This document shows, one piece after another, positions 2,831 through 62,229 of a DNA stretch of 64,000 nt. Numbering within the stretch: position 1 is the first letter of the stretch; every line of letters starts with the position of its first letter. Under the pieces are notes generated by a model that was not told the DNA's origin, did no database searches, and saw only the letters and a list, made by a program, of their open reading frames with translations. Origin of the DNA: Loxodes magnus (taxonomy: Eukaryota; Ciliophora; Karyorelictea; Loxodida; Loxodidae); the NCBI GenBank assembly GCA_946699065.1, contig CAMPDV010001544.1:26129-90128 (forward strand), in the 5' to 3' direction. Position numbers and translations under genes: made by a program.

Positions 2831-5800
2831 TCAAATTAGTCTCAAAGCTGCTTCATTTACCAACATAATATCTAATCCGGATAATTTTGTTTCTAAAAAG
2901 CTACATTCATGTATAACTAGACCTTATCTTCCAAAAATTTATTTCAACAATCCATTTGACTTCCAATTATCTTAAACAAATTCAAAATCTTCTCGTTCTT
3001 TATCTTAACTTAATCTCAAAACTTATGAGTCTCATACCTTTACTGTTTAATCTCAACTTCCTGATACTATTCACTTATCAGATATCGCTACCGAAGAAAC
3101 TGCATTTTGATGCCCTTTTAGTGTTTACTTTATTTATCCCGTTTACAAATCTCATATATTTACTGTTTTATCTCAACTTCCTGAAATTATTCAGTTGTCA
3201 GATATCGCTATTGAAAAAACTTTACTTTAATGCCCTTTTAGTGTTTACTTTATTTATCCCGTTTACAAGTCTCATACTTTTACTGTTTTATCTCAACTTC
3301 CTGAAATTATTCAGTTATTAAATATCGCCACCGAAGAAACTTCATTTTAATGTCCTTTAAGTGTTTATTTTATTTATCCCGTTTACAAATCTCATATATT
3401 TACTGTTTTATCTCAACTTCCTGAAATTATTCAGTTATTAAATATCGCCACCGAAGAAACTTCCTTTTAATGTCCTTTTAGTGTTTATTTTATTTATCCC
3501 GTTTACAAGTCTCATACTTTTACTGTTTAATCATAACTTCCCGATACTATTCAGTTATTAAATATCGCCACCGAAGAAACTTCCTTTTAATGTCCTTTAA
3601 GTGTTTACTTTATTTATCCCGTTTACAAGTCTCATACCTTTACTGTTTAATCTTAACTTCCCGATACTATTCAGTTATCATATATCGCTACCGATGTAAC
3701 TTCCATTTAATGTCCTTTAAGTGTTTATTTTATTTATCCCGTTTACAAGTCTCATACCTTTACTGTTTAATCTTAACTTCCTGATACTATTCAGTTATTA
3801 GATATTGCTACTGAAAAAACTTTACTTTAATGGCCTTCTTGAGTTTGCTTTATTTAACCTATATGCAAGTCTCATAACTTTACTGTTTTATCTTAACTTC
3901 CTGATACTATTCAGTTATTAGATATTGCAACCGCCAAAACTGCATTCTAATGTCCTTCTAGTGTATGTTTTAAATATCCTGTTTAAAAATCTCAGATCTT
4001 TACTGTTTAATCATAACTTCCAGATACTATTCACTTATCAGTTATCGTAACAGAAAAAACTGCACCTTGATGCCCTTCTAGTGTTTGTTTTATTTATCCC
4101 GTTTACAAATTTCATACTTTTAAAGTTTAATCTTAACTACCCGATACTATTTAATTATTAGATATCGCTACCGATTAAACTGCACTTAGATGCCCTTCTA
4201 GTGAATATTTTAATTATCCCGTTTACAAACCTCATACCTTTACTGTTGTATCAGCACTTCCCGATACTATTCACTTATCCGATATAGCTACCGAATTAAC
4301 TTCCTCTTGATGCTCTTGAAATGTTTTTTATGATTATCCAGTTTTCAAGTCTCATTTTTTTACTGTTTTATCAAGACTCCCCGATACTATTCATTTATCA
4401 TATATCGCAACCGACAAAACTGCACTTAGATGCCCTTTTAGTGTTTATTTTATTTATCCTGTTTACAAGTCTCATACATTTATTGTTTTATCTCAACTTC
4501 CAGATACTATTCATTTATCAGATATCGCTACCGACTTAACTTAATTTTAATGCTGTTAAAGTGTTTTTTTTATTTACCCAGTTTGCAAGTCTCATATCTT
4601 TACTGTTTCATCATCACTTCCCGATACTATTCACTTATCAGATATTGCTACCGATGTAACAAAATCTTAATGTCCTAACAAGGAAGGTTTTTGTCCGAAT
4701 CTTGCTTCTAGCATGTTACAAAAATTGAAATTAACATTTCTTAGTCAAGCCTTATTTAAATTAATTTTTTCTAAATTAGATTCACTCAAATCACAAGAAT
4801 CAATAATTGCATCACTTAAGTCCGCTTCTTTTATTTAAATTCCTTTTAAGTCTAATTTTATAAATTAATAATTCATATAGTTTAAAAAGGTTATAGCATT
4901 AGCCGATGCTTATTCTATTTTATTTTCACCTTTAGAGAGTTCTACTATTCTTAGAAGATTCGTTTTAATTATTTCGATATCAGCCATTTCTTTTACGAAA
5001 TTTATTATTTCATAGTTATTTATAAAGTTAATTTAATTCATCCTGCTTTTCATTACATTTTCTATATTTACATCTAGATTTTTAGTTCAGTTAATTATAT
5101 TCTTAGCTATATAAAAATCCTAAATCGAAGGATGAATAAATTCTATTCTTTTTTCTTTATTCTCTTCTTTGATCGTAATTAAGCATCCTTATTGATTCAG
5201 ATCTTTAAGCAAATTTTTTATTCACTCAATTTCTTTTTTGGTTTCGGTTGTCATTAATACTTTTCCTTTCATTAATGAATAAGCTGCTTCAGTTGAAATT
5301 TTTTCGAATTCTTCTTTTTCAGGCATCAAATCTGCATTTTTATATGATGCAAATTTGTCCAAATTTTTAGTATACCAATTTTCGATAAAAGCTTCATAAA
5401 GCTTGAATTTATTTATTTTCTCTTTAGAATTTAAGAAGGATTTAAGTATATTTTTGTCCTGAATACAAATATAAAGTATAAAAGGGTTATTTAATATTTC
5501 TAATAAGCCTGGAATAGAATAAATGCTTTTTTTTATTTCATCACTTGCTTTTGCTGGTTGTTATGATTCATTTTCAGCTTATTTTATAGTATAAGCATTT
5601 CCTATGTTAGTATTTTGACACATTAGATCTATATATTTTTCTATTTAGCTTTATGTAAAGGGTTTTATATATAATTCTTATAATTATTGAATTTAAGCTT
5701 CTTATCCTATATAAGGAGCGAAGAATTTCTTGTAATCGTTTTATTTTAGTGCATAATTTATCCTGCACGTTATGATATACTTTGCATAAGGATATTTAGA

Positions 5801-7855
5801 TGCGAGATTGTTTGTTGATATTAAAGATAAGAACTGGCAAAGCTCATCATAAGCATCAAAAAGGAACAAAATCTTTCTAAACTTTAGTTTTTCAGAATGC
5901 TAGATTTTGTATTTTTCTAATCCTTACTCTATTAGACTATTTTTAAACTGATCTATCTAAGGAAGATAGACATATATTGGTAAGTATTCGTTCATTTTTG
6001 TTAAAAGATCATGTGCTAAAATTTTCAAGAAAAGTGTTTTTCCTGATCCCGATTCTCCTAAAAGTAAAATGCCAGTTTTCTCATTATCGTCTAAGATTTT
6101 GTAAATGCTTTCTTTGAGATCCTTTTATTATGCCGAATCCGGAGTATCATCACAAAACAAACTCACATATACATCTTTTTTCTGTGATATTTCTTTATCT
6201 AAATCTTTTGTCATTTATTTATAAGTTTTTTCATCAATTCCTGTTAGCGATTGTCAATTTTCCTACAAAGTCTTTAAATCTTATATCACCTATTCCGTTT
6301 CTATAAGATATGTTATTATAATCTACTTTTATTTAGAATTTTTCTCTAGTTCATTTATTTATTACTCAAAGATCTTTTCTTTTAGTTATACGGCATAAGC
6401 TTACTACTTCTCATCAATCGTTAATTCTAGTAGCATTCTAAGCGCGTAAGATTTTATCTTCCATTCTTAATCTGAACATAGTTGTTCTAGAAAGCTATAA
6501 GCCTCATTTGTCAAATCAAGGTTCTAAGATTTTTTTATGATTTCCTTAAGCAAAAAGCAAGCTCTTAGTTTTGTCCTTTGTTAACTCTCAACAAAATCCT
6601 TAAATTTTTTAAATGTTTGTGATTAGAAATCTGACATCAGTTCCAAAAATTTAGCATCTAAAATATGAATCAAAACATGTAGTTTGTTTTTAGAAATATC
6701 AGCTAAATGTTTACATCCTCATTAAAAAAAATCCTTTATATTAACTAGCGCCTCAGGATTGATAGATCCTATTCCAAATGATAAGCTAGCAATGAACTAT
6801 GCTACTTATAGAACTTTCAGACCCATATCAAAATAATCAATTTTTCAATTATTCTATACCTTATCCAATATTATAAGGCTCTATGAAAGAGCAAATTCTA
6901 GCTCAGGTCCTCCAATTCCATCGATTTTGACCAGATTTAAACCGTTTTAAATTTACTAAACAAGATCTTCTTTTGTTTTGCTGCTGATTAGTCGGCAATC
7001 CTTCTCTTAATTTATTAGTAAAATTTCAAGTAATTCAGGTAGATGCCTCACTAAACTCTCTTTTAATAATTGAGGCCAGCTTTCTGCTCTACTATCTGAA
7101 ATAAGTTAAGTAATACTTCAAATGAGAATTTGAGGATCATTTATCTTTTTAAAATCTACCTTTTCAATACATTTAATTCCTTACAGAATTAAAGATTTAT
7201 CCATTTTTTCCAAGCCTTATTTTATATATTATATTCCTTGCCCATATTCTTATTATTATTAAGTGTCCGCAATGCTCAAGTTTGATGAAGTATCTTGCCT
7301 TATTTATGAATCTTTAATTTTTATTTAGTTTTTACAGCAACAGGAACCTCCTCCCTTTAGTCCTAAGTTATAAAATAAAAAGGTGTTTGTATTGTTTAAC
7401 ACAACTAAATTCTTTTTTGAGGGTCAGATGTTTGTTTATACGGGCTTTCCAAACTACTAGATTTCTAGATAGTCTTAATAGTTCAGCTGTTTTGATTCCT
7501 TTTTAGCCAAGTTTAAGTTTGTCTTTATTTAATCAAAGAGATAGCCACTAGAAGAATTTTTAGAGCTCATGAATATACTAAGTTGTATATATAAAAGCTC
7601 TTCTATGTTTGGCCTATTAATAAGGCAAATTTTATTCCTATGTACTGATCTTAAGCTTAATACTTTTTCAAAGCTACTTGAGTTTTTGTAATCATAGAGA
7701 TAAATGCTTGTGCGTTTTTAAGCTAGCTCTCCCGAATACTTTGAAGTTGCCTCCATGTATTAATTTCTCCAATCACAAGTACATTTTTGCTTTGTAGATA
7801 CCATTTAGTTTTTTAAACGGTCTCCGATACAAAGGCATGAGCAGTCTGGTGACAT
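2831..7855 (-). CDS. NACHT (STAND NTPase) - pentapeptide - WD40 protein, 14 WD repeats
   Basis: A signal-transduction NTPase with a beta-propeller sensor region, the architecture of fungal and bacterial NLR-like proteins. One uninterrupted frame of 1,674 codons runs from ATG 7855 to TGA 2833; the Walker A, GGP and WD motifs checked are all in phase. The N-terminus has a Cys cluster (MSPDCSCLCIGDRLK), and a second one (KGGGSCCCK) follows near residue 190. A helical region follows. Walker A is GESGSGKT at residues 600-607, Walker B is LFLFDAYDEL with Asp667, and a sensor-like YIITCRINYA follows. IPGLLEILNNPFIL is typical of NACHT proteins. Pentapeptide-like ADLSDA/CDLSES/SNLEKI repeats lie at about 995-1050, WD repeats at about 1056-1605, and a conserved tail ends LRLI. 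Many Gln are TAA/TAG and many Trp are TGA, including the W of each WD motif. The ligand is unknown; inferred immune or allorecognition sensor. Confidence 0.93.
3029..4680 (-). repeat. 14 tandem WD40 units, 120-bp period
   Basis: The same landmark (GTCTCATA..TTTACTG on the + strand) recurs at about 3033, 3150 and every 120 bp to 4590, with no indel in 14 units. Each unit encodes 40 residues of the form GH..(V)xS(V/I)AISDxWI(I/V)SGSxDxTVxIWDLQTGQIKQTL. Fourteen blades would make two seven-bladed propellers. Units at 3121-3840 are the most alike. Differences cluster just after the GH pair and around SDxW/GSxD, the positions that form the propeller rim. This suggests amplification and exchange among units. 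Confidence 0.93.
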
Positions 7856-24835: not shown

Positions 24836-24986
24836 AAGACTGTACTCGTACAGGATCACTTCTATAGGAGATTCTACTCGTTTGCTCCAACAAACGAGAC
24901 TCCAACCCAATCTAGGAAGATGATTAACGCACTTTTCCCAGCAGGAGGTTTCGATGACGCTATTGGAAAAAGTGGTTCTGACTAGA
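24836..24986 (+). ncRNA. U3: U3 small nucleolar RNA, copy 1
   Basis: U3 is the box C/D RNA of the SSU processome; it base-pairs with pre-rRNA to allow 18S maturation. The 5' part AAGACTGTACT...CAGGATCACTTCTATAG matches the conserved 5' domain of U3 as I know it from other eukaryotes. A strong hairpin follows (CTCGTTTG/CAAACGAG inside GGAG/CTCC). Next come box C-like AGATGATTA, a second CGATGAC, and box D in TTCTGACTAGA. A closing stem CACTTTTCC/GGAAAAAGTG is present. At 151 nt it is short compared with the 210-330 nt of animals and yeast. This copy carries the loop variant GCTATTGG. Confidence 0.85.
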
Positions 24987-25148
24987 TCCTCGAAACAACA
25001 AAAAATATCGCAAAATAATTAAAAAATTCATCTTTCTTAGAATTTGCAAAAGAGCACTTGTATCTAATTTACAAAATACTTTAAAATCTTTCAATCTAAA
25101 CATTTTAAATGAGTCTAGAAAGAGAATTCTATATAATCAGTTCCATTC
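24987..25148. other. U3 copy 1 downstream flank
   Basis: Diverges from the other U3 copies after ACTAGAT, so the 3' end of the repeat coincides with the RNA end. Confidence 0.5.
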
Positions 25149-28240: not shown

Positions 28241-28391
28241 AAGACTGTACTCGTACAGGATCACTTCTATAGGAGATTCTACTCGTTTGCTCCAACAAAC
28301 GAGACTCCAACCCAATCTAGGAAGATGATTAACGCACTTTTCCCAGCAGGAGGTTTCGATGACGCTATTGGAAAAAGTGGTTCTGACTAGA
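28241..28391 (+). ncRNA. U3: U3 small nucleolar RNA, copy 2
   Basis: Identical by eye to copy 1 over 151 nt, including the GCTATTGG loop, so the two arose by recent duplication or are kept alike by gene conversion. Followed by TTCTTATAATTAAATAG, which is partly shared with the 60.9-kb copy. Apparent ORFs on the opposite strand are shadows. Confidence 0.85.
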
Positions 28392-30310
28392 TTCTTATAA
28401 TTAAATAGAATTATTCTCAAAAATATCATAAACAAATTCCTTAGCAAATTTGTAATTATCATAGAAACAGTATCAAATATAATTTTTTTTCATCAAAGAC
28501 ACTAGGAAATAAACATCGAAAATAAACCTTTTTTTAATATGCTTAAAGCATAATAATCATTTAATATTTAGATAATATTAAAATAAAAAACTACATTAAA
28601 TATAGCAGATTAGTTATATAGAAAGTCATCGAAATCTAAATAATTATTTTATTTCATTTATTTTAATTGAATAGCACTGCAATATGTTTAAAAAAGTATC
28701 TGAATAGTTTGCCTCTTAAAAATAGTATTTTTAAATTTGAATATTTCAATCTAAAAATTAAGGAATTTATAAAAATAATGCCGAAATTTGTCTGAGGATT
28801 CAACTCAGTAACTCAACAATATTAAACAAAAACTATTATAAAACCAAGAAACACTTATAGAAGAAATTTCCATGAGCTTTCATTCTATTTTTTTAAGTTG
28901 ACTCATAATTAAATGATCCAGAATTAGTTATTCTTCTAGTTAAATTATAAAAAGGATTAACTAAGAAATGGATATATCAATGAAAGCTAAATGGTAGAAC
29001 AATAATTATATTTATCACTATGATAATATCAAAGAAAGATCAAACTAGAAAAAAGAATAGTTAAAGCCTTTTTAATTAAGTCTAAATAAAAAAATATCTT
29101 AATCTTTATCTTCTTCAGTAAAGAAACGTATCAAAAATAATTTCTGCTATAAAACAGAAAAATTATACAATCTTTAATAAAAATTAATAGCGAGTTTCTC
29201 TAAAAAAACTAATTAAAGGAATTAAAACTTTAAAAATATTTATTTACAATAGCTAAAATTTCTAAAATTAAGCTATTCTTTTTATAATATATCCATTATT
29301 TAGTGCTATACTACATCAACTTAATCATAGCCATACTTCTAAAGTTGCTTTTTAAGTTGATTCATAACTTATAATTATATTCTTATACTCTTTTAAAATG
29401 ATGAAATTATTTTACTTTGCTAACAAAATAGAATAAAAAAATAAACACTAGCATTTAAAATAAAAGTTGCTATATAAATAAATCTAATAATTTATACTAG
29501 AAATTAATTTTTATTTGCTCATTAAGAATCTTAGAGCTTATCCTCTATTTTTCTTAACTTTATCTTTAAATTTATTTTTTAAATGAGATACATTTACATC
29601 AAAGTAGCATACATCAAATAAATCATTTTCAATTATTAATCTAACATCTATGTTTAATCCTTAGTTAACTTGATAAAAATACTAGTAGCAATAAAAGATA
29701 GACAGAAGGTATTAAAGAAGAAATTTTAAGAATTATTTGATAGGAGCTGCAAAATTCTATTGCCTTAGTTAAATTTTTAGATAATAGCAATGGATAAAAA
29801 TAACTATAATCTTCATTATTATAAATATTAAAACTTTATCCAATCAATTAGCCACTTTTTTCTCTTTTATAGCAAGTTTTATCTATTTTTAAAACTAAAA
29901 TTGATTTAATTTAATTTAATCACTTATAGAATTTTTTAATTCCTGTATACACTTTAAATATAAAACTTACATTGTTGTATACTAAAAGACCTTATAGCAA
30001 AAAAGTAAAGAGGCGCATTTTAACTAAATAGATTATTTAATATATTTACAGATTTAAGGATAGAAGTAGAAAGGTAAAACTTGTAATTATTTTAAGTAAA
30101 GAGCTAAGAAATTCAGTTTAATTTGAAGTTTATAACTTAATTTTTTAAAGTTCTAGTTAAAAATCTAATTTAGAGATAAGGGTAAATAGTTTAATGAATG
30201 AGTTGATTTAGTTAGCAAATTTAAAGTTATAAAGTTATCTTAGAATATTGCTAAATTTTAAATTTTTCTATTCGGGCATATAAATTATTGTTCTCCTATT
30301 TTTTTATAAA
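28392..30310. other. Intergenic AT-rich stretch
   Basis: No frame I would defend. A short charged stretch near 29,690-29,760 (KDRQKVLKKKFQELFDRSCK) could be a gene remnant. Confidence 0.4.
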
Positions 30311-33300
30311 ATGTCAGAGGCCTGCAAATGCCTTTGTAACGGAAACCGTTTAAAAATCTAAATAGTTCCTACAAAACAAAACTGCATAAGTGGTTAGAGA
30401 AATGATCAATTAGAGATGGCTTCAAATGATTTAGGAGAGCTAACTTGAAAATCCACAAGCACTTAGCCTTATTATGAAAAAAACGGAAAGGGCTTTGGTA
30501 AAGTCTTTAGCTAAAATCCAGTTCATAATAATAAAGCTGATTTTAAGATTTTACAAAATACATAGATTAGTTCTAAAAGTTCTTTAGATGGAAATTAATT
30601 TGGCTAAATAAAAACACTCTTAAACTTTATTAAAAAATAAGAAAAATAACTGAAGTATTAAGACTATGAAGAAATATAGTAATTTGGAAAATTCTAGCAA
30701 ATGTACATCTATTATGCAACAAAGAAATAAATTTAATTTACTAATATGAATCGTTTTCTATTTTATAACTCAGGACTTAAGGGAGGAGGTTGTGGAGCTT
30801 GCAAAAACTAAGAAGAAAAATATTACAACAAGAAAAATAAAAAGCAGGTTCCTGAGAATAAATAATTAAAGAGTATTATAGATACTTAAGAATAGCAAGA
30901 ATATTAGCAAGGAATATAATATATAAAATAAGGTTTGGAATAACTGGATAAATATTTGATACTGTAAGGAATTAAATGCATTGAAAAGATAGATTTTACA
31001 AAGGCAAATAATCCTCATATTCTGATTCTAAGTATCGTTTAACTTATTTCTGATAAGAGAGCAGAAAATTGGTCTCAATTACTAAAAGAGAGCTTAGTGA
31101 GGCACCTACCTGAATTACTTGAAATCTTATTAATAGATTAAGAGAATGGTAACCTACAAAACAGCAGCAAAACAAAAAAAGATCTTGAAGATTAAATTTA
31201 ATCTGGGTTAGATTTGGTCAAAATCGATAGGATTGGAGGACCTGAGCTCCAGTTTACTCTTTCTTAGAGCCATATAATATTAAAAAAGGTGTAGAATAAT
31301 GGAAAGATCGATTATTTTGATATGGGACTGAAAATTCTAAAAGTAGCTTAGTGCATTGCTAGTTTATCATTTGGATTAGGAGTTTTAAATACTAAGACGC
31401 TGGATAACATAAAAGATTTCTTTAAATGGGGGTTTGGAAAGTTAGAGGATATTTCGAACAACAAAGAACATATTTTGATTCATATTTTAGATGCTAAATT
31501 TTTGGAACTGATAAAAGATTTCTAACCACTTACATTCTAAGATTTCAAGGAAATTGCTTGAATTAATACAGAACAAAACTAAGGGTTTGCTTTTTGCTTA
31601 AGGAAATCATATTAAAATAATAGAACCTTGATTTGACTAAAGAGGCTTATAACTTTTTAGAGCAATTATGTTCAGATAAAGAATGAAAGATAAAATCTTA
31701 TGCGCTTAGAATGCTTCTAGAACTAACGATTGATAAGAAGTAGCAAGCTAAGGCTTCATAACTAAAAGAAAATATTTTAAAACAATAAATTAATTGACTA
31801 ACAGAGAATCCTAATTAAGAGTAGATTATAATAACATATCTTACAAAAAATAAAAAGGTGCTAGATTAATTAAAGATTTTGTAATAAAATTGGAATTCAC
31901 TAGCAGGAATTGATGTCAATACTTATAAATATATGAAAAATGGATTAGAAATAGAGGTATCATAGAAAAAAGACGTATATGTGAGTTTGTTTTGCGTAGA
32001 TCCTCCGAATTATTCTTAATAAAAGGATCTCAAAAAAAGCATTTACAAATTCTTGTACGATGATTCAAAAACTGGCCTATTACTCTTAGGAGAATCAGGA
32101 TCAGGAAAAACACTTTTCTTGAAAATTTTAGCTCTTGAGCTCTTATCGTAAATCCATGAATATTTACCAATATATATCTATCTTCCAAAGATAGATCAGT
32201 TCAAAAATGATCTAATAGAGTAAGGACTAGAAAACTACAAAATTAAACATTCAGAAAAATTAAATTTTAGAAAGATTTTGTTCTTGTTTGATGCTTATGA
32301 CGAGCTTTGTGAGTATTTATCTCTAATATCAACTAACAATCTCACAACTAAATACCCTTAAGCAAAATATATCATAACTTGCAGAATTAACTACGCACTA
32401 AAATAAAACGATTACAAAAAATTCTTTGCCCCCTGAATAGGATAGGAAGCTTAAATTAAATAATTATAAGAATTATATATAAAACCTTTTACTAAAGACC
32501 AAATTGAAAGTTATATAGCTCTAAAGTGTAAAAATAACGACAAATAGGATGTTTAAACTATAAAATAAACTGAAAATGAATAATAACAATCTGCAAAAGC
32601 AAGTGAAGAAATAATGAAGAGCATTTATTCTATTCCAGGCTTATTAGAAATTTTAAATAACCCTTTCATACTTTACATTTGCATTTAGGAAGATTTACTA
32701 AAATCCTTCTAAACTTTTAATGAGAAAATAAATAAATCCAAACTATATAAAGCTTTTATCGAAAACTGGTATAATAAAAATTTAGAGAAAATAGCATCAT
32801 TCAAAGAGGCTAATCAAATGCCTCAGAAAGAAATATTTGAAGAAATTTCTACCCAAGCAGCCTATTCATTAATGAAAGAAAAAGTTTCAGTGACAAGTAA
32901 AACAAAAAATGATGTTGATTGATTAAAGAATTTGCTTAAAGATCTTAATCAATAAGGATGTTTACTTACAATCAAAGAAAAAAATGAAAAAGAAAATAAT
33001 GAAGAAAAAAAAAATTAATAATAGAATTTATTCATCCTTCGATTTAGGATTTTTATATAGCTTTGGATATAGTTAATTGAATCTAAAATTTATATGTAAG
33101 TATAGAAAATGCTATCGAAAGCAGGATGAATTAAATTAATTTTATAAATAAATATGAAATAATAAGTTTCGTAAAAGAAATGGCTAATAATGAAAATATT
33201 AAAAAAATCTTCTGAAAGTAGTAGAACTCTCAAAAAAAGAAAATAGAGTAGAGAAAGCATCCGCTAATGCTATAACTCTTTTAAATTATATGGACTATTA

Positions 33301-34246
33301 ATTTATATAATTAGATTTAAAAGGAATTTAAATAAAAGGAGCAAATTTAAGCGAATCAATTATTGATTCTTGTGATTTAAGTGAATCTAATTTAGAAAAA
33401 TAAATCTAAGTCAGTTTGTCTCAGAAATGTTAATTCCAATTAATGCAATATGTAAGAAATCACATTTGGACAAAAGCCTACTTTAAAGGGTATAAAAGTG
33501 CAGTTAAATCTGTAGTGATATCCAATAAATAATAGATAAGGAAATGAAGATAAAACAGTAAAGGCATGAAATTTGCAAATGGGATAAATAAAATATACAT
33601 TAGAAGCATAAAAGTGAAATTTTATCAGTAGCTATATTTGATAAAATAATAGTTTCAAGAAGTTATGATAAAACAGTAAAGATATGAGATATTTAAACGG
33701 GATAAATAAAATAAACACTAGAAGGGCATAGAAGTATATTAAATCTGTAGCTATTTCAATTAATTAAATAGTTTCTGAAAGTGATGATAAGGTAGTAAAA
33801 GTATGAGACTTGCAAACTGGATAAAAAAAATATACTTTAGAAGGGTATGCAGGAGGAATTTTGTTAATAGCGATATCTGATAGATAAATAATATCAGGAA
33901 GTGAAGATAAGATAGTTAAGATATGAGATTTATAAATGGGAAACATAAAATAAACATTAGAAGGGCATAAAAGGGGAGTTTCGTCGGTAGCTATAAGTGA
34001 TAAGTGAATAGTATCAGGAAGTGAAGGTAATACATTTAAATTAAGATATTTATAAAAGTAAAACAGTAGTTACGATGAAAAGAAGAAAATTTATAAATTT
34101 TTTAAAAGAATAGGAAGTCAAATGGATCGCTGAAATAAATTTTTGGAAAATAAGGACTAGTAATACATGGATATAGTCTTAAAGATGCATAGCTAAGTGA
34201 TTTAAATATAAATTTGGTTTATGACGCAACTTTAAGATTAATTTGA
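30311..34246 (+). pseudogene. Decayed paralogue of the NACHT-pentapeptide-WD40 gene
   Basis: Starts MSEACKCLCNGNRLK and follows the intact gene at 2.8-7.9 kb motif by motif: KGGGCGACK, RIGGPELQFTLSQSH, Walker A GESGSGKT at 32,089, Walker B FLFDAYDEL, pentapeptides (GANLSESIIDSCDLSE), WD units and the tail KSNGSLKQIFGKQGL ending LRLI-TGA 34244. Compared with its twin it has lost frame near 31,565 (one base deleted), in the A-run near 33,010, near 33,215 and near 33,400-33,480, and it has about five WD units instead of 14. Trp is TGG in one copy and TGA in the other at several sites (for example QEW/KEW before KIKSYALRML). Truncated products remain possible. Confidence 0.85.
33480..34050 (+). 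repeat. About five WD40 units, 120-bp period
   Basis: Units recur with KIWD-like anchors near 33,560, 33,685, 33,805, 33,925 and 34,045. They are the same family as the 14-unit array but fewer and interrupted. Confidence 0.75.
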
Positions 34247-34501
34247 AATTCTTATAAATAATTTTAATCCAAATTAAATATAAAAAATAAAAATGATTAA
34301 TTATACTTTAATTTCTATAATAGTTAATTTCCCTTAACTAGCAATAAAATTATTATCTATTTTAAATTTACAGACTTTTTGTCGAAAGTTAAAATCAATT
34401 TCCTATTAACTTTAGGAATATAAATATTAAATTCTTTAGATTCTAGTTTTTTCTCAACTAGATTACTTTTGCAATATATTTATAAGTATTAAAAATTTTT
34501 A

Positions 34502-43831: not shown

Positions 43832-44788
43832 GAATATTTTTCTCTATTAAATTATATTATAACATAAAATTACAAAAATTGATGTTTTCGCTTCTTTTAT
43901 TTTTATAATTGATTTTTAATTTTTTATCCTTATTAACTTTTACATATACAATTTATTTAAATAATCTTTATATTAAAGCTTTAACGGAATTATTTTATTT
44001 AAAACATTTTTAAATAATTTCTAGAAAATTTCCATTATTTCCTTTTTAATTTTTACCTTTATTTTTTTCTTTTTTGCATTCAATTATCCTTTTTAAAATT
44101 CTTCTATGTTAAAAAAGCTCAAAATCTTTTAATTTATTTAGCTTTACATACATGATTTCTACTCGTAATTTCCTATTTCAAATTTTTTAACTTCCTTTTT
44201 CTTTCTTCTTTCAAATTTTAAGAATGTTTAATATATTTATTTATTCAGTTTCATTTTTCATTTTTCACTTTTATCCATTTTTTAAATCATAAATACAAAT
44301 TTTTTATTAATAATTCTTACTCTTATCTTAATTCATTCTCTATTTGCTTTTTCAGGATTTTTTCATTATCTAACTTTTAGTATCAATCCCACACTTTATT
44401 TTTATTATATTTATCTTTAACTTTTATTTCTTTTTTTAAGCATATAATATTTTACCCACCTTACTTATTTTTGATACTCTATAAGCTGAGTCATAACATT
44501 TTTACATTTATATTTTAAAATATTTTTCATTTTAGTTTCTTATTATTTACTCTTTATAACTAAAATTAAAAATAAATATTTTTTTGCCTTAGATTTAATA
44601 TATTACTAATTGATTTGCTGATTTGTTTCTACTTACATATTTATTTTTATCATTTTATTATAAAAAATAATTGAAATTAATTTATTCGTAAAACAATTAA
44701 AAGTACTTTTCATCCTATCACCTCTTTAGTAATCTCTATCTGTCTTCTTCATTCATTACTATATTGTTCATACTACAATTTTTGAACT
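43832..44788. other. Intergenic T-rich stretch
   Basis: Long T/TTA-rich low-complexity sequence with no supported frame. It lies downstream of the kinase gene. Confidence 0.45.
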
Positions 44789-47208
44789 TCAAACCATAAT
44801 CATTATATACCTCATTCCAATCAATCTATTATATTACCTTGGTCTTAAAATAATACTTACTTGATCTTATTCCCCATTAGCATCATTGTTGTTGTCTTAA
44901 TTTAATACTCTCTAGATATTCCATCTTTTCACATCATAATCTTTGCTTCAAATATTAAACCCTCAATGGCCAATACTTGATATCAACCATTTATTATCCA
45001 TACTTAATGCTATACTACCCACAAATCCTGTATTTCCAAGTAAAGTACATATGCACTATCCTGTTAAAATATTCCAAATTTTTATTTACTAGTCATAACC
45101 CCCCGATATTATATGCCTATTATTTTAAGTTATTTTAATACAATATACAAACTATCAATGCCCTTAAAGAGTTTTAATACACTAATTACTTTCAAAATCC
45201 CATATTTTATAGTATTATCTTAACTTCCTGATGCTATAAATCTACTATCATTTGATATTTCTACTGATTATACTGAATAATTATGACCTCTCATTGTTCT
45301 TTTTAATTAATTAAACTATATGTCTCATATCTTTATTGTTCTGTCACAACTTCCTGATACTATTCATTTATTATTATTTGATATTGCTACAGACATTACA
45401 CCAGATTCATGATATCTCAATGTACTTCTTAATTGATTAGACTAAAAGTCTCATATTTTTATTGTTTTATCATTACTTCCTGAAACAATTAATCTATTGT
45501 CACTTGATATTGCTACTGAATTTACATAATCTGTATGACCAATCAATTAACTCTTTAACTATCTTTTTTGTATATCTCATATCTTTATATTATTATCAAA
45601 ACCTCCTGATATTATTCACCTATTATCACTTGATATTGCTAAAGACTTTACACCAATATAGTGACCTGGTAATTTATTACTTAACTAATTATTTTGGAAA
45701 TCCCATATTCTTATTGTTCAATCCATACTACCTGATATTATTCATTTGTTGTCATTTGATATTGCAACGGATCATACAGATTGAGTATGACCATGAAAGA
45801 TATGAGGGTGTTCCGTTATGATGTTAGAGAGATTTGCTTTATCAAGATTACAATTGATAAACTTTGAATTACGGAGATTGCAACTTTATAAGTTAGCATT
45901 CTAAAAATTACAACTGATAAATGTTGTGTCAGATAAGTCAGCGCTAGATATTTGTATATTCTGAAAATCTTAAAATTCAAAGCGATAATTCATATAATTC
46001 AAAATTGATATCGCATTCGCCGCTGCTTATTGTAATCCTCTTTAGCATTTTGATATTTTTAAAATTTTAAGCAATTTCTGCTCTAGTATTTAGTCTTTTA
46101 TTTGGTTTAATTGATATAAATTATCTACTTGTTATGCAAAGTTCTGCTTGTTTATTAGACTTTAATATAAAAACTCAAATTATATTTCTTATTCTTTTAA
46201 TTGCATTAAGAACCCCTTTATCTATTAAAAACTTGTAAGTTCATCTTCTTGAGGTTAATACTATAATTGAGATACCTCTAAAGTTTTTGTTTAAATTTGC
46301 TCATTTTAATTTTATTCTTCAAATCTATTTAAAGTTTACTTAAGACTCTTTAATTTTTGTTTTAGTTATGAAGTATTGTATGGTATTGCTACTTTTATTT
46401 CCATGTCTTAATTACTCAACATTTGTATTATATTTTCAATTTCTAACCTTTTTTATGGATCCTATTCCCAACATCCTTTTATTATGTATGCCAAATTTTA
46501 TGGACAGTCCTCAGGTATATCCTCCCTTATTGATTTTTATATGTTTTATATTATAAAAGCATCTTCTAAATCTCCAAACGGTATTCTCCTTGATGCTATT
46601 TCTCATAAAACCATACCCAACGCGTAGATATCCGATTGTCTACTGTACTAAGGTCTACTACTAATCAACTCCGGAGCCATTCAACGAAAACCTCACACTT
46701 TTGATACTGTAATCATAGCCTTTGATTCCGTTTTAATCTTTGGCATTCCAAAGTCAGTAATTTTAGCTACAAAATTAGTATCCAATAGTACATTGCTACT
46801 CTTAAGATCTCTATGAATTATATTTAACTTATGAATATATTCTAAACCTAACGCTATATGCAACCCTATTTAGTATCTTAGCTTCCACGGTATTTCTTAC
46901 TTGCTTTTTAAGAGATCATATAAAGATTGTTACATCAGTTCCATTACTAATCTAAATGGTGAATGCTAGTAGCCGTACATTACTATTACATTAGGATGTC
47001 TTAGCTTTTTAAATAATTATAGCTCTTATATAAACTCATCGTTGCTATTTTAATCTAAACCCTTTATAAACAACTATTTTATAGCTACTTAAATACTTCC
47101 AAGTCACTATCCTTTAAACACTCTTCCAAAGCTTCCCCTCTTAATTTCTTAACTTATCCTAAGTTCCTAACTTGTAATAACTAAATCTGAAAGAGTATTA
47201 GATAGCAT
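44789..47208 (-). CDS. TKL-type protein kinase - pentapeptide - WD40 protein (one frameshift)
   Basis: Phosphorylates Ser/Thr (or Tyr) residues; the WD propeller probably binds the trigger or partner. ATG 47208 opens [15 protein letters not shown]. The kinase is complete: GSFGRVFKG loop, VAIKQL Lys, HRDLKSSN (His132), DFG, GFRWMAPE (W176 is TGA), [12 protein letters not shown] and a C-lobe Arg. Next come a coiled-coil (about 250-400), the linker [14 protein letters not shown], pentapeptides ([22 protein letters not shown]) and seven WD units with 40-codon spacing. In the fifth blade, NTIKIWD lacks one base (near 45,205). Adding it gives exactly 806 codons before TGA 44791. The shift may be real decay, an assembly error, or absent in the living copy. 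Confidence 0.88.
44830..45815 (-). repeat. Seven WD40 units of the kinase gene
   Basis: Anchors of the IWD motif lie near 45,700, 45,576, 45,450, 45,330, 45,205, 45,080 and 44,960, about 120 bp apart. Sequences are more diverged from each other than in the NACHT gene. Seven units fit one closed propeller. Confidence 0.75.
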
Positions 47209-47402
47209 TTATAAGCTTAATGAAAACGAAGCATTTAATCAAAATATAGCAGAATTAAATAAAATCTAAATGCTTAATCAAACTTTTAATATACTATTGC
47301 ACTTATATTTACTTTCTTATCTATATTATACTAATACCTTATATTACCATTAATTTATTTAAATATTTAAGAACATATTTTATATTAATTAGCTATAATA
47401 GA

Positions 47403-49271
47403 TCATATAACACAAATATTACTATTATTTAAGTATATATCAGCTAACACTAGACAGAAAAATATATAGTAATACCTTATATAGATATCATTATGTTTAT
47501 AAATAAATAAAAATACAAAATTAAATGTTATGTGTTCTTGGAGATATATCAACCTCTTTCCTGCCAACCTCTAGATTGTTCTAGAGGCTAAAATAATTGT
47601 CTGAAAATCTCTACAACTCTTCTCCTTGTCATGCATATTATCCTTTAATTCTTCTTTCAACTAGATGCTAGATGTATTTTTTCTTGTAAATTTATCCAAA
47701 TTTGTTGCAATATAGCCTTTCTCTTTCTCATAAGTTAAGATAAGGTAAATCAGTTAACGTGATAACTACCTTCAATAGGCTGATCACGGTTGATTAAAAA
47801 ATTATTGGTAGTTATCCCCATATTCTTGAAGTTCTTCTTCAGAATCAATTTCATCTATTACATACCTTTCGGTGACACTTAACCCTTTTTTACTATTGGA
47901 ATCTTGTTCCAATCTCAGCCTTTGCCGAATATTAGTCCGGTTCTTCTCTCCTATGCATTAGCAATATCTTCCAGAAGCTGGTCTCCATTGTACAATTTTC
48001 TTCTAAATATTTTTCCATTTGCATTGCAGTAAAATTTAGTCATTTTTTTCCAAATTTTCTAGTTTTATAATTTTTTAAAATTGGAATTTTCTGCAGTTTT
48101 TATATAAATGTCCTATTTTAAAACAGTAGAAACATCTTGAATTGCAGTTTTTTGTATCGTGTCCTCATTTTCAACATTTTTGCATTAAAAATAAATTTTC
48201 TGATTAGAAAAAAGTTTGTAATTCAGTTATTCCACAATCATAGGATCATTATGAAGGAAAAGAAGCTATTACTAATTATTTTGTCTATTATTTTATTTTA
48301 GTTTAAACTCCGTTTTTTCCAGTTCTTCGCTAAGTTGAGAGTTTGACCTTGTTTCTTAGCCCCATTTTCGTCGTTTATTTTAACTTTATTTTGTACATTA
48401 AAAGTCAAAGATTCAATCCGTTAATTCAGGTCAAATAATAACAGTTGCATCTTTTTACTTTCCGTTTCTAAGGAGTATACTTCAATGAGAGAATTTTATT
48501 AGTCGATGTTCTGCAAATTTTTAGAGAATTATTTCTTAGGAGCCATTTTTTATATAATAATTTTGTTGTTATTGCCTTTTCTTTTTTTTCCAACTACTTC
48601 TACTAGTTTTAATATTCTTACTTGAAATTGAGAAATTTTTGGCACCTTTTCTATAGATACTTTTGAGAGTTAAAATAATAACATCTTCTTGCTTGTTATT
48701 TAGATTGAAATATTGGGTTATTTTCACCTTCAATTATTATTGGTTCATTCTTTTATTCTTTCAGTTCCATTTAACGGTGCAATTTGTACTCGTTTTCTTC
48801 AATTTTTTCTAATTTTGAATTAGTTATTTCTATTTCTATTGCTAGTTTTGAGATTAACTTCTCTAATCTTGTGAAATATATCAAAATGCGTTAAGGTCTC
48901 TTTTATTGGTCATGAGTCTCGATTCTATTTTCCAGTATTTTAAAGTTTTTCCATCAGTCTCTTATTATCTTTCTTCAGATTTTGACCTCTTCCTGGAGGT
49001 CCAGCACCACTTTAATCAGCTAATCATAGCTATTTACAATTATGTAGTGAGATTCGAGACTTCCGAACGCATTATATTTTTAGCCTATTTCCTAGGTTTT
49101 TCTTTCAGAGATGAGAGGGGTGACTTTTTTAGTAGCCTTTTTCTGGTCCTAGCCTTTCTAGGATGTTGTTAACTCCTGCTTTTTTAGGGCCGCAAAGAAT
49201 TCTGGTTTGAATTCTCAAATCTATTTTATCTGTAGTTAAAACTATTGAAAAAAATTTTTAAGTTAAGGCAT
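47403..49271 (-). CDS. Coiled-coil protein with CCHC zinc knuckles (Gag-like), frame-broken
   Basis: CCHC knuckles bind nucleic acid; in this layout they recall retroelement Gag or cellular zinc-knuckle proteins. From ATG 49271 the first frame has VTPLISERKTQEIGQKYNAF, VLDLQEEVKIWRKIIRDWW, ISKLAIEIEITNSKLEKIEE and RQMELKEQKNEPIIIEGEN. Three frame changes of the same size follow (near 48,550, 48,340 and 48,180). They lead through MAPKKQFSKNLQNIDQQNSL and SEELEKTEFKLK to two knuckles. The second, CFYCFKIGHLYKNC, is perfect; the first, CWKWGHDTKNC, lacks its first Cys in this frame. The C-terminal part contains VTERYVIDEIDSEEELQEY, and TGA is at 47405. The three shifts sum to zero, so small introns are possible, but I found no convincing ones. 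No protease or polymerase follows. Confidence 0.6.
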
Positions 49272-50666: not shown

Positions 50667-50817
50667 AAGACTGTACTCGTACAGGATCACTTCTATAGGA
50701 GATTCTACTCGTTTGCTCCAACAAACGAGACTCCAACCCAATCTAGGAAGATGATTAACGCACTTTTCCCAGCAGGAGGTTTCGATGACGCTTGTGGAAA
50801 AAGTGGTTCTGACTAGA
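50667..50817 (+). ncRNA. U3: U3 small nucleolar RNA, copy 3
   Basis: Same 151-nt RNA as copy 1, but with the loop variant GCTTGTGG before the closing stem, shared with copies 4 and 5. Boxes C and D and all hairpins are unchanged. Confidence 0.85.
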
Positions 50818-51243
50818 TTCTTATAATTTTTAAACAATAAAAAATAAAAATTTATTGCATTAAAGTTATACTTCGATAAAATAATTTAAAATAGGATATT
50901 TTAAATTGATAAGATAATCTACAATAGTAAAATATATAAAAAATAGAAATTAACTCACAAAGAATAATTATTTTTAATTTAAATATTTATTTTGTTCAAA
51001 TATTCATTAATCTAAATTTATAGAAATAAAATAATATAAAACCAAAAAAAATTAATTTATAATTGGATATATCTGAGAAATCAAAATATAGATTTTATAA
51101 GATTAAAATTAACAAATATTTAAATGTTCACTATGCATATCTATAATTATAAGACTCTGTTTTTAACTTTTTATTCCAAAAATATTAATATTTTATTATT
51201 AAAATTTACTTTAATTTCAGATATTTAGATATTTTAAAAGTAT
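50818..51243. other. Intergenic AT-rich stretch
   Basis: No gene seen. Followed by the dispersed hairpin element. Confidence 0.4.
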
Positions 51244-51640: not shown

Positions 51641-52717
51641 GAAATAAGATTTTAAATAAATGTTTTATTTAATGATTATTGCAAACTAATACTTTTTAAA
51701 TTAAGATATATATGCTTATAATTTTAATACTAGCAAATAACTTAAATAGTCTTTATTACTATAATATAATATAATATACTTTCTTAAGTTAAATTATAAT
51801 TCTTTCTTACATATCTAATAATGAATTAGATTAATCATTTAAAACTATTCCCATTTATATGATAAAACATATTTGATACAGTAAATCTAATTATTACTAA
51901 AATAAATTACTACTACTTATATCAGCATCCTTTACCTGAAAGTTGTTAATTTTATTACTTTATTAATATATTAATATCATTATTTTACTTAATCAACCTT
52001 TAAGTAATTAAACTTTAATGTAATTAAACCTTAATGTAATAAAAAGTTATTAATATAAATTGTCTTTCTCACATAATCTTCATTCAGAAAACAAACCTTC
52101 ACTTCCTTTCTGTGTCTAAATCAGCGTAGCTGGTTACCAATTCCGCTTCTGACCTTGTTTCATTAAATGAAAAATATATAAATACTGGTAAAAGACTAAA
52201 TGATAATGTTTTATGATTAAACCTTTAATATAAATGCTTAATATTTAATTATCTTATGAATAAAATAAACATATTACATTCTACTTGTTTAGAGTATCAC
52301 TTTAAAATAATCCTAACTATTATTGCTAATATATTTAATTTTCTTTAATTAGCTTTTAGAAAATGTTTTTGATGTTTTTTAATTATAACCTTGATCTCAT
52401 CAATTTGAATTACTCTTGTTATAATCTAGACTTTTATTTCTTCCTTTTTTGCTTTTTCCATTTCTAATAATTCTGTCTTCTTGACATAAGTTTCTTGTGA
52501 AATCTTTTTATTTATAAATCTAAATATCCTAAATAAGACTTTGGAAAGGAGTTTATAAGTCCTTAATCATATAATAGTATTATGATATAATGAATAAAGT
52601 ATTAATGCTTATATAAGATAGACTAATAGTAATCTTAATAATAGATTTGTAGTCATAATAATATTATTTAAATATATTTATTTTTAGTTATTTTTCCTTA
52701 TTTTATTATTATAAGAA
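51641..52717. other. Mostly intergenic; short coding remnant at 52,330-52,520 (-)
   Basis: A - strand stretch near 52,420-52,500 reads CQEDRIIRNGKSKKGRNKSL and may be part of a gene. The remainder shows nothing I can support. Confidence 0.3.
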
Positions 52718-52868
52718 TCTAGTCAGAACCATTTTTTCCACAAGCGTCATCGAAACCTCCTGCTGGGAAAAGTGCGTTAATCATCTTCCTAGATTGGGTT
52801 GGAGTCTCGTTTGTTGGAGCAAACGAGTAGAATCTCCTATAGAAGTGATCCTGTACGAGTACAGTCTT
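52718..52868 (-). ncRNA. U3: U3 small nucleolar RNA, copy 4
   Basis: Reverse-orientation copy, 151 nt, with the GCTTGTGG loop variant. Together with copy 3 it forms an inverted pair about 2 kb apart, a possible source of local rearrangement. Confidence 0.85.
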
Positions 52869-60881: not shown

Positions 60882-61031
60882 AAGACTGTACTCGTACAGG
60901 ATCACTTCTATAGGAGATTCTACTCGTTTGCTCCACAAACGAGACTCCAACCCAATCTAGGAAGATGATTAACGCACTTTTCCCAGCAGGAGGTTTCGAT
61001 GACGCTTGTGGAAAAAGTGGTTCTGACTAGA
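60882..61031 (+). ncRNA. U3: U3 small nucleolar RNA, copy 5
   Basis: 150 nt. One A is missing from the loop of the main hairpin (CTCCA instead of CTCCAA) while the 8-bp stem CTCGTTTG/CAAACGAG is intact. Loop variant GCTTGTGG. Confidence 0.85.
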
Positions 61032-62229
61032 TTTGTATAATTAAATAGAATTATTCTCAAAACTTGCAATTTTAATTAAATCTCAATAAAAGTTGTAGTT
61101 AAAATTTGAATTACATCTAATAAAACAGTTTAAGATTAAAACTAAATTTATAATGATTAAAGATACTATGCTTAAAACATCAAAAATAAACTCCTTTCTT
61201 ATAAATAAAAGACTTATACAGTTTTACTTATTTAACTCATAACCATTTTTCATAATAAAGGGATTTTGATTTGTCTCGATCGTTATAAATAAAATAACTT
61301 TCTCATTTTAATTTAGTTTATTTAAGTAATCTTCTAGAATTATTTAAAATAGCATTAAAAAGTTTGTTTCTTTTAATGTCTATTTAGTTATATAACTTTG
61401 CGATATAATCTCTACAAAGTATAAGAACTAAGGAATATACTGCTTTATTTTAAATTTAGACATTTCGAATTCTTTTACAGCAATAAATCAGTCTTAATAT
61501 TTATTATCCACTCACATAATCTTATCTATTACTATAAAAAATAGATTTTAGCTAAGTATGAAAAATAGAAAGCAACTAAAATAAACTTGAAAGCTTTAAT
61601 TCTTTTAATCCATTTAATTCTCACTTTTCTCATCTCATTCGATATTGCAAACTGATTAAAAAATCTACTCTCTTTATTAACCATTTTCTAAAAAGGATCT
61701 TCTACTAAGTTAATAAAATCCTGGAAGACAAAATCTTTTGAAGGTGTAAATGATTTTACTAAAAGTATCGCAAAAAGTGAAATGAAAGTTATAAAGCCTT
61801 CTCATGTAAATTGCTTATAGGTATATTACTATAATATCAATGTATATACATTAAGTTAGTAATTTGTTTAAGTCATTTATTATAAGAGATGTATGTTAGA
61901 AATTATAAGTAAGAGATAGGGATTTATTCCAGTTACTAGAGAATATTAGGCAATTAAGGAAAGACACTATTTAAACTTGGAACTAAGTTATCAATAATAA
62001 TAAACTGAATAAGAGCTTTATCTCATATAAGGAAACTAAAACTTATTTTTCTAGCTCTAAAAAATAACTTCGAGTTGCTTCTAAATTTCCTTCTTAGATT
62101 GTCCAGAGATTACTTTACTTTTTTGAGTTAAAAAGAAAAGAGATGAAAACTAAAATATAGACATTAGCTAGTAATAATTTATATGGATGTGGGAACTTAT
62201 TATTTCACTGAGGTTATTCCATCTATTTA
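61032..62229. other. Stretch with possible upstream exons only
   Basis: A weak + strand frame near 61,680-61,800 (FYQVNKILEDKIF) could belong to the following gene. Otherwise nothing supported. Confidence 0.3.

Follow-up and report, generated by a model that had tools for sequence, protein, structure and literature searches.

NLRs with exchangeable, positively selected repeats are known in filamentous fungi, and a link between the NLRs of these fungi and multicellularity has been drawn (PMC4986451). The closest to the gene described below are the HNWD NLRs of Podospora anserina (HET-D, HET-E and HET-R), in which a NACHT domain is followed by WD40 units that are homogenised within genes and change in copy number by recombination. 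In the fungal WD unit codons 7, 9, 25 and 27, which flank the conserved codons 8 and 26, are under diversifying selection (PMC1805685, PMC2873952), and HET-E has been modelled as a double 7-blade propeller (PMC12222747). The present work concerns a gene, here called gene A, in a stretch of 64,000 nucleotides of the karyorelict ciliate Loxodes magnus (assembly GCA_946699065.1, contig CAMPDV010001544.1, positions 26,129 to 90,128, forward strand; 'the window'). Gene A is likely to encode a STAND receptor of NLR-like build whose propeller sensor diversifies, resembling the fungal HNWD proteins in the behaviour of its repeats.

Other described proteins resemble gene A in part. Apaf-1 is likewise a STAND NTPase with two C-terminal WD40 propellers, but its NTPase is of the NB-ARC type and its repeats are not known to be near-identical, whereas gene A is of the NACHT type and no CARD was found in it. 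The animal NLRs NLRC4, NLRP3 and NOD2 carry leucine-rich repeats where gene A has WD40 repeats, and neither PYD nor CARD was found in gene A. The highly repetitive WD40 protein 2ymu, which we take to be bacterial, differs in that its solved chain (577 residues) has no NACHT domain. According to PMC3499355 almost all eukaryotes have the NACHT domain, and its mere presence in a ciliate is therefore not new. A first-pass annotation, made from the DNA letters alone, had remarked that to its knowledge no system of this kind is described for ciliates using this code, and this is uncontradicted by the literature searched, in which no such receptor family in ciliates was found and which left most subscription journals outside its scope. 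None of PMC7159879, PMC3710099, PMC4083563, PMC11631190, PMC9485055 and PMC3499355 describes one in the portions consulted, and the genome paper for Loxodes magnus (PMC11441545) contains in its main text no match for NACHT and none for WD40.

Reading frame, domains and relatives of gene A

Gene A proved to be the intact gene of 1,674 codons that the first-pass annotation had described, on the minus strand, which that annotation had not given. With TAA and TAG translated as glutamine and TGA as tryptophan it forms a single uninterrupted frame at 2831..7855, which opens with an ATG at 7855 and closes with a TGA stop at 2833-2831 (1,675 codons including the stop). Within the frame there are 105 TAA, 15 TAG and 40 internal TGA codons, the last internal TGA being codon 1608 and the stop codon 1675, with no TGA just upstream of the stop. 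Tryptophan is encoded 32 times in the WD40 array, each time by TGA and never by TGG. In the karyorelict code (NCBI table 27) TGA terminates only near the 3' end (PMC11441545), and gene A follows this pattern, with TAA and TAG as glutamine, internal TGA as tryptophan and TGA as stop. Translation of the 64-kb window with table 11 yielded no open reading frame of 150 or more residues, and with table 6 the gene A frame is interrupted at each TGA. The body of the gene is judged to be under constraint, the ratio of non-synonymous to synonymous differences (pN/pS) against the paralogue L040 being 0.20-0.59 over codons 96-1057; in the C-terminal tail it is 0.88. Over codons 1-95 the values against L039 and L042 are 0.99-1.18, these two copies, ~99% alike in that stretch, amounting to little more than a single comparison. 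Because pN/pS is thus near 1 in this part against 0.20-0.59 downstream, the true start may lie inside the frame, and the ATG at 7855 is unproven as the start codon.

The order of parts in the protein is a helical N-terminus, the NACHT domain, pentapeptide repeats, 14 WD40 blades and a conserved tail (Table 1). The NACHT domain proposed in the first-pass annotation is supported by profile search: PF05729 matches gene A at E=1.4e-7 with 32.0 bits, above the Pfam cut-off of 26.7, and matches all 16 aligned family members (E up to 0.1). The assignment is based on this match and more weakly on structure comparison, in which NLRC4, NLRP and NOD2 chains were among the matches to modelled residues ~600-920, a part of low model confidence. 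When PDB sequences were searched with the NACHT profile, there was no NLR among the results, which consisted of two weak matches, the better being DnaI (E=0.0059), and NCBIfam gave weak pentapeptide-family and TsaE matches only, all below cut-off. The Walker A and Walker B motifs named in that annotation are present, as is a sensor-like motif; both Walker motifs are intact, the core of Walker B reading FDAYDEL, and their key residues are invariant in 16/16 members. EFIHPSIQDFY we take to be a winged-helix-type motif, the names of the other motifs of gene A being likewise our own attribution. With its NACHT profile, intact Walker motifs and C-terminal superstructure-forming repeats, gene A fits the architecture of the NACHT clade of STAND proteins.

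No known effector domain was found at the N-terminus, where residues 1-518 matched no Pfam family. CARD and NB-ARC gave no match in this part and are not among the 11 Pfam families matched by gene A (E up to 0.1), PYD was not found by Pfam profile, and a HET domain gave no match in residues 1-518 (Pfam, E up to 1) or among the 11 families. The Gly/Cys-rich motif GLKGGGSCCC is a possible lipid-anchor site; a cysteine follows the KGGG core directly in at least 90% of the 16 members, and in gene A a serine stands there, followed by three cysteines. A PADLOC match to HEAT-ARM_XIII (E=8e-34) covers the WD40 region and was not taken as a defence call.

The WD40 profile PF00400 matches gene A in 14 stretches (E=1.5e-120), in agreement with the 14 blades in an unbroken 120-bp register reported previously: there are 14 units of 120 bp. 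A further in-frame part of the protein, scanned with Pfam, matched nothing beyond the close of the last WD unit. Tandem Repeats Finder gave 13.6 copies, 83% matches, 0% indels and a score of 1836 for this array, the next-best array in the window scoring 597. Units of gene A are on average 79.3% identical in nucleotides and 68.7% in amino acids, the highest nucleotide identity being 95.0%. Foldseek matched the modelled array to Apaf-1 at E=3.1e-30.

Gene A belongs to a large family in the window's own genome, within which all the family comparisons below were made, so that they compare copies or haplotypes and not strains. A query with its NACHT region gave 911 first-look candidates, of which 94 were scored, all at E<1e-95, and a query with the paralogue L026 gave 1,122, of which 91 were scored, all at E<1e-161. 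Together these genome-wide searches, of a kind that the first-pass annotation had recommended, located the family at 113 or more places spread over 83 contigs; the number is a minimum for places and not a gene count, as diverged haplotypes may be assembled apart. The assembly was made with Falcon at a 96% identity threshold and consists of primary contigs (PMC11441545). No bacterial or archaeal relative of the gene A body was found by tblastn from 231 and 251 short-pattern matches in two scans of GTDB contigs. Among other STAND genes of the genome, a CHAT domain stands upstream of NACHT in L004 and L008 and an NB-ARC domain is present in L007 (E=3.6e-14). Genome searches found two CHAT and two NB-ARC places, the CHAT places being other than L004 and L008, so that such a search misses some.

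Change of the WD40 arrays within the genome

The arrays are the mutable part of the gene and change faster than the bodies. This is seen most directly in six copies (L027-L032, on contigs C203, C270 and C1107) whose bodies are at least 99.86% identical, with 0-4 bases different over ~2.8 kb, and whose blade numbers are 14, 14, 14, 14, 7 and 18, the frame being open throughout the stretch read. L027 and L031 show no difference in the body and yet have 14 and 7 blades. In L028 a unit of the unit-10 type takes the place of unit 9. The arrays of L039 and L040 have 13 and 14 blades through a fusion of units 9 and 10, and a later unit holds a conversion tract matching unit 2. The first-pass annotation had proposed that repeat number and unit sequences be compared between strains; both differ between near-identical copies, the comparison lying within one genome rather than between strains. 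Within this scope neither of the outcomes that the annotation had named as refuting it, uniform arrays or a NACHT domain lacking profile support, was encountered.

Among 23 arrays read through to the conserved tail, which were picked from the best-scoring places and from which the family at large may differ, 20 have 14 blades and the remaining three have 7, 15 and 18; the frame stays open through the array in all 23. Blade counts were taken from a dynamic-programming walk and agree with the array spans. Outside this set stand L039 (13 blades), L041 (4 blades), gene B and L042 (both broken), L020, L023 and L024. In five groups of close copies, 38 of 40 pairs show lower identity in the array, compared over its first ~1.3 kb, than in the body, the exceptions being L019/L020 and L030/L032. 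Thirteen pairs with bodies 95.4-98.9% identical have arrays 82.6-91.5% identical, and in L036/L037 the body is 98.9% and the array 89.3% identical.

Most blades resemble other blades of their own gene more than their counterparts in other genes. The bodies of gene A and L040 share ~72% protein identity; when their blades are pooled, 25/28 have their nearest neighbour in their own array and 0/28 have it in the blade of equal index in the other gene, and identity between the two genes is 0.780 for same-index and 0.764 for different-index blades. When seven arrays representing different subfamilies are compared, 83 of their 98 blades are nearest to a blade of their own array (13, 12, 10, 9, 14, 12 and 13 of 14). 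The units thus look exchanged and homogenised within genes.

Variable positions in the WD unit and the proposed function of gene A

The fungal codons 7, 9, 25 and 27 correspond to positions 5, 7, D-1 and D+1 of the Loxodes unit in an alignment made by eye on conserved residues, and these four positions were fixed before counting. In 127 blades from 15 arrays, mostly incomplete (5-14 blades each) and with non-canonical blades missed, they take the 1st, 2nd, 4th and 5th places when the 40 positions are ranked by non-synonymous variation, the third going to position 4; random sets of four positions ranked as high in 5 of 100,000 trials. Eleven near-identical copies among 26 arrays were omitted from this count to prevent double counting. 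At the four positions pN/pS is 2.20 over all pairs, 2.90 when pairs must be at least 80% identical and 3.86 when the threshold is 88%; the corresponding values elsewhere in the unit are 0.46, 0.47 and 0.55. These ratios come from pair counting, in which pairs are non-independent, and not from a codon model. Bootstrapping over arrays at the 80% threshold gave 1.71-5.01 at the four positions and 0.39-0.59 elsewhere. The synonymous component is similar in both (pS of 0.227, 0.160 and 0.119 at the four positions against 0.271, 0.168 and 0.090 elsewhere at the three thresholds). The array of gene A alone gives 2.23 against 0.43, and its 14 blades carry 13 different four-residue combinations. The four positions could be scored in 183 of 211 blades, those without the SGSxDx pattern being left out, and comprise 161 distinct combinations. 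The excess of amino-acid change at these positions is pooled evidence for selection and not proof of it.

The likeness to HET-D/E-type receptors remarked on in the first-pass annotation thus extends to the most variable codons, and units look exchanged or homogenised within genes as they do in the fungus. Repeat-number polymorphism and unit exchange, by which HNWD genes are characterised, were found here between copies or haplotypes of one genome, and a double propeller such as that modelled for HET-E is predicted for gene A. There are also differences. Gene A has a helical, weakly HEAT-like N-terminus in place of a HET match, and a pentapeptide module between NACHT and WD40. Of the ciliate arrays, 20/23 have 14 blades, whereas the fungal ones have 11 conserved and three cryptic repeats; unit identity in amino acids is 69% in gene A and above 80% in HNWD. 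The ciliate family occupies at least 113 places in a single-celled host, in contrast to ten fungal NWD genes (PMC1805685). Fungal repeats of high internal conservation are defined by an identity above 85% (PMC4986451), and the best of the 26 arrays listed here reaches 84.3% in amino acids and 90.4% in nucleotides over 5 blades. In view of the missing HET match and a repeat identity that falls short of 85%, gene A is best regarded as convergent with the fungal HNWD proteins and not as a member of that group.

STAND proteins undergo nucleotide-dependent opening and oligomerisation. For gene A we infer a nucleotide cycle, oligomerisation, ligand binding and a role in defence or self/non-self recognition. 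The WD40 array would form two beta-propellers whose top-face residues, one set per blade, bind a protein or other cue, and the NACHT domain would act as the nucleotide switch, linked to the sensor by the pentapeptide (collar) and winged-helix regions. Ligand binding would open the protein and permit oligomerisation, upon which the helical N-terminus may relay the signal, perhaps at a membrane via the Gly/Cys-rich motif. New specificities would arise as WD units undergo unequal recombination and gene conversion, both within an array and between copies, with selection favouring altered amino acids at the positions that bind. A role in immunity or self-recognition, which the first-pass annotation had put forward as an inference, keeps that standing here.

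Other readings of gene A were also considered. No effector or immune marker was found in gene A by Pfam, and L040 taken alone shows no excess at the four positions (pN/pS of 0.92, 0.69 and 0.00 at the three thresholds). As regards the test for positive selection at rim positions that the first-pass annotation had proposed, the pooled arrays show an excess of non-synonymous change (2.20-3.86 at the positions equivalent to the fungal ones) and L040 by itself does not (0.92), in both cases by a counting method. The lack of such a marker and the result for L040 would suit a STAND regulator with an ordinary cellular role in development, trafficking or signalling, whose array undergoes routine concerted evolution and whose top face varies since the rest is structurally fixed; propellers are general scaffolds, and the top individual matches of this one include F-box and ribosome-assembly proteins. 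We regard such a role as unlikely, although it is the most credible of the alternatives, as it would have to accommodate a pooled pN 2.2-3.9-fold above pS at the four positions with pS close to that elsewhere, arrays less alike than bodies in 38 of 40 close pairs, and a family that is large and recently duplicating. The more improbable suggestion that the family is mainly selfish or drifting, its copies multiplying, its arrays changing neutrally and most copies becoming pseudogenes, draws on the repeat-rich nature of the genome (PMC11441545), on the broken copies beside gene A (L039, L041, L042 and gene B) and on array changes that respect the borders of units, an outcome expected of slippage or unequal crossing-over. 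Neutral change does not, however, produce pN above pS at four positions fixed beforehand, and the body of gene A has a pN/pS of 0.20-0.59 against L040; moreover every one of the 23 arrays from best-scoring places is open and 20 have exactly 14 blades.

Least probable of all, in our estimation, is a receptor devoted strictly to allorecognition, that is to heterokaryon- or mating-type self-recognition, and not to pathogen defence. The evolutionary behaviour of the arrays is closest to that of the het-d and het-e repeats (PMC1805685, PMC2873952, PMC12222747), but the family greatly outnumbers the ten NWD genes of the fungus. Such ciliates are not known to fuse in the way that hyphae do. If the interpretation of gene A as a receptor with a diversifying sensor is correct, it would be a striking convergence, a free-living single cell having repeats that behave like the fungal ones and do so at equivalent codons, and recognition by such receptors where there is no tissue to protect would become directly testable. 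Copies with 7, 14, 15 and 18 blades provide a natural series for the study of propeller closure and specificity.

Neighbouring copies and a shared sensor cassette

The contig of the window (C1544) and contig C888 are collinear across three family genes. The first pair, L039/L040, is 94.6-99.8% identical over the aligned parts; a deletion in the NACHT region of L039, the copy with 13 blades, breaks its frame. L041, which corresponds to gene A, retains 4 blades and is missing its 5' part, and in the third pair, gene B and L042, numerous small gaps shift the frame and break the genes. The neighbouring gene C gave an equally scoring match on both contigs. The collinear pairs may be haplotypes or may reflect a segmental duplication. 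Over its first 1.56 kb L042 shares 99.0% identity with the 5' part of L039, which points to a recent conversion or duplication involving adjacent copies.

In gene C a protein kinase (PF07714, E=9.2e-58) is fused to WD40 repeats by way of a linker and a pentapeptide-like stretch; starting at the linker and taking in the first blades, 337 residues align with gene A at 44% identity. A 178-residue linker-pentapeptide query from gene C gave 8,123 first-look candidates, unvetted apart from the 150 that were scored, all at E<=3.6e-35. Eight cassette loci were read, of which four carry a kinase (L063, L066, L068 and L072), L063 being a near-identical copy of gene C that scored equally in the cassette search. 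The other four (L067, L069, L070 and L071) have by eye a Cys-rich, RING-like N-terminus, for which no Pfam model scored above cut-off. A tail like that of gene A was recognised by eye in seven of the eight loci and in five of these seven lies in a frame different from that of the N-terminal part, which implies introns or frame breaks between. With gene A and this sample of loci taken together, one sensor cassette therefore appears with at least three outputs: NACHT, kinase and RING-like. The four variable positions show a weaker contrast in the kinase/RING-type arrays (blades from 7/8 loci), with a pN/pS of 1.37 against 0.49 elsewhere and ranks of 5, 2, 4 and 12 of 42. It is conceivable, and we suggest it tentatively from this sample, that these genes form a combinatorial, rapidly diversifying receptor superfamily in which one cassette, made up of a helical linker, the pentapeptide repeats, a hypervariable WD40 propeller and the conserved tail, occurs in hundreds to thousands of places with interchangeable outputs and recombined blades. 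If so, this would be an innate immune or self-recognition repertoire rivalling plant NLRs and receptor kinases in scale and independently evolved in a ciliate.

On contigs C1-C31, 8 of the 14 scored cassette matches lie within 50 kb of the contig start by hand count, which has a chance of 9e-9 under a uniform model; these ends may be telomeres or just places where the assembly broke at the repeats. The 64-kb window also contains five U3 snoRNA matches (RF01848) above the gathering score, listed with the other features in Table 1.

Table 1. Positions of gene A, its parts and other features of the window
Feature	Position	Strand	Remarks
Gene A, whole frame	2831..7855	-	1,674 codons + TGA stop; start codon not proven
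GLKGGGSCCC	7334..7363	-	KGGG core invariant in 16/16 aligned members
N-terminal helical, weakly HEAT-like region, ~aa 193-522	6290..7279	-	weak HEAT matches in 14/16 members
NACHT domain	5627..6070	-	Pfam stretch aa 596-743
Walker A GESGSGKT, aa 600-607	6035..6058	-	Gly, Ser, Gly, Ser, Gly, Lys invariant 16/16
Walker B KILFLFDAYDEL, aa 661-672	5840..5875	-	both Asp and Glu invariant 16/16
Sensor-like AKYIITCR (IITCR within aa 691-698)	5762..5785	-	sequence motif
EFIHPSIQDFY, aa 905-915	5111..5143	-	His, Ser, Ile, Asp, Tyr invariant 16/16
Pentapeptide repeats	4694..4855	-	PF00805, E=8.6e-7
14 WD40 blades, 120-bp units in strict register	2996..4675	-	predicted double beta-propeller
Conserved C-terminal tail, start GRQGLVIHECSF...	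2897..2932	-	in frame in 23/23 arrays read through to tail
Gene B, pseudogene paralogue of gene A	30264..34433 (approximate)	+	many 1-2 bp frame breaks
Gene C, protein kinase + linker-pentapeptide-WD40 cassette	44500..48102 (approximate)	-	frame changes within array
U3 snoRNA RF01848 match	24836-24987	+	gathering score exceeded
U3 snoRNA RF01848 match	28241-28392	+	gathering score exceeded
U3 snoRNA RF01848 match	50667-50818	+	gathering score exceeded
U3 snoRNA RF01848 match	52717-52868	-	gathering score exceeded
U3 snoRNA RF01848 match	60882-61032	+	gathering score exceeded

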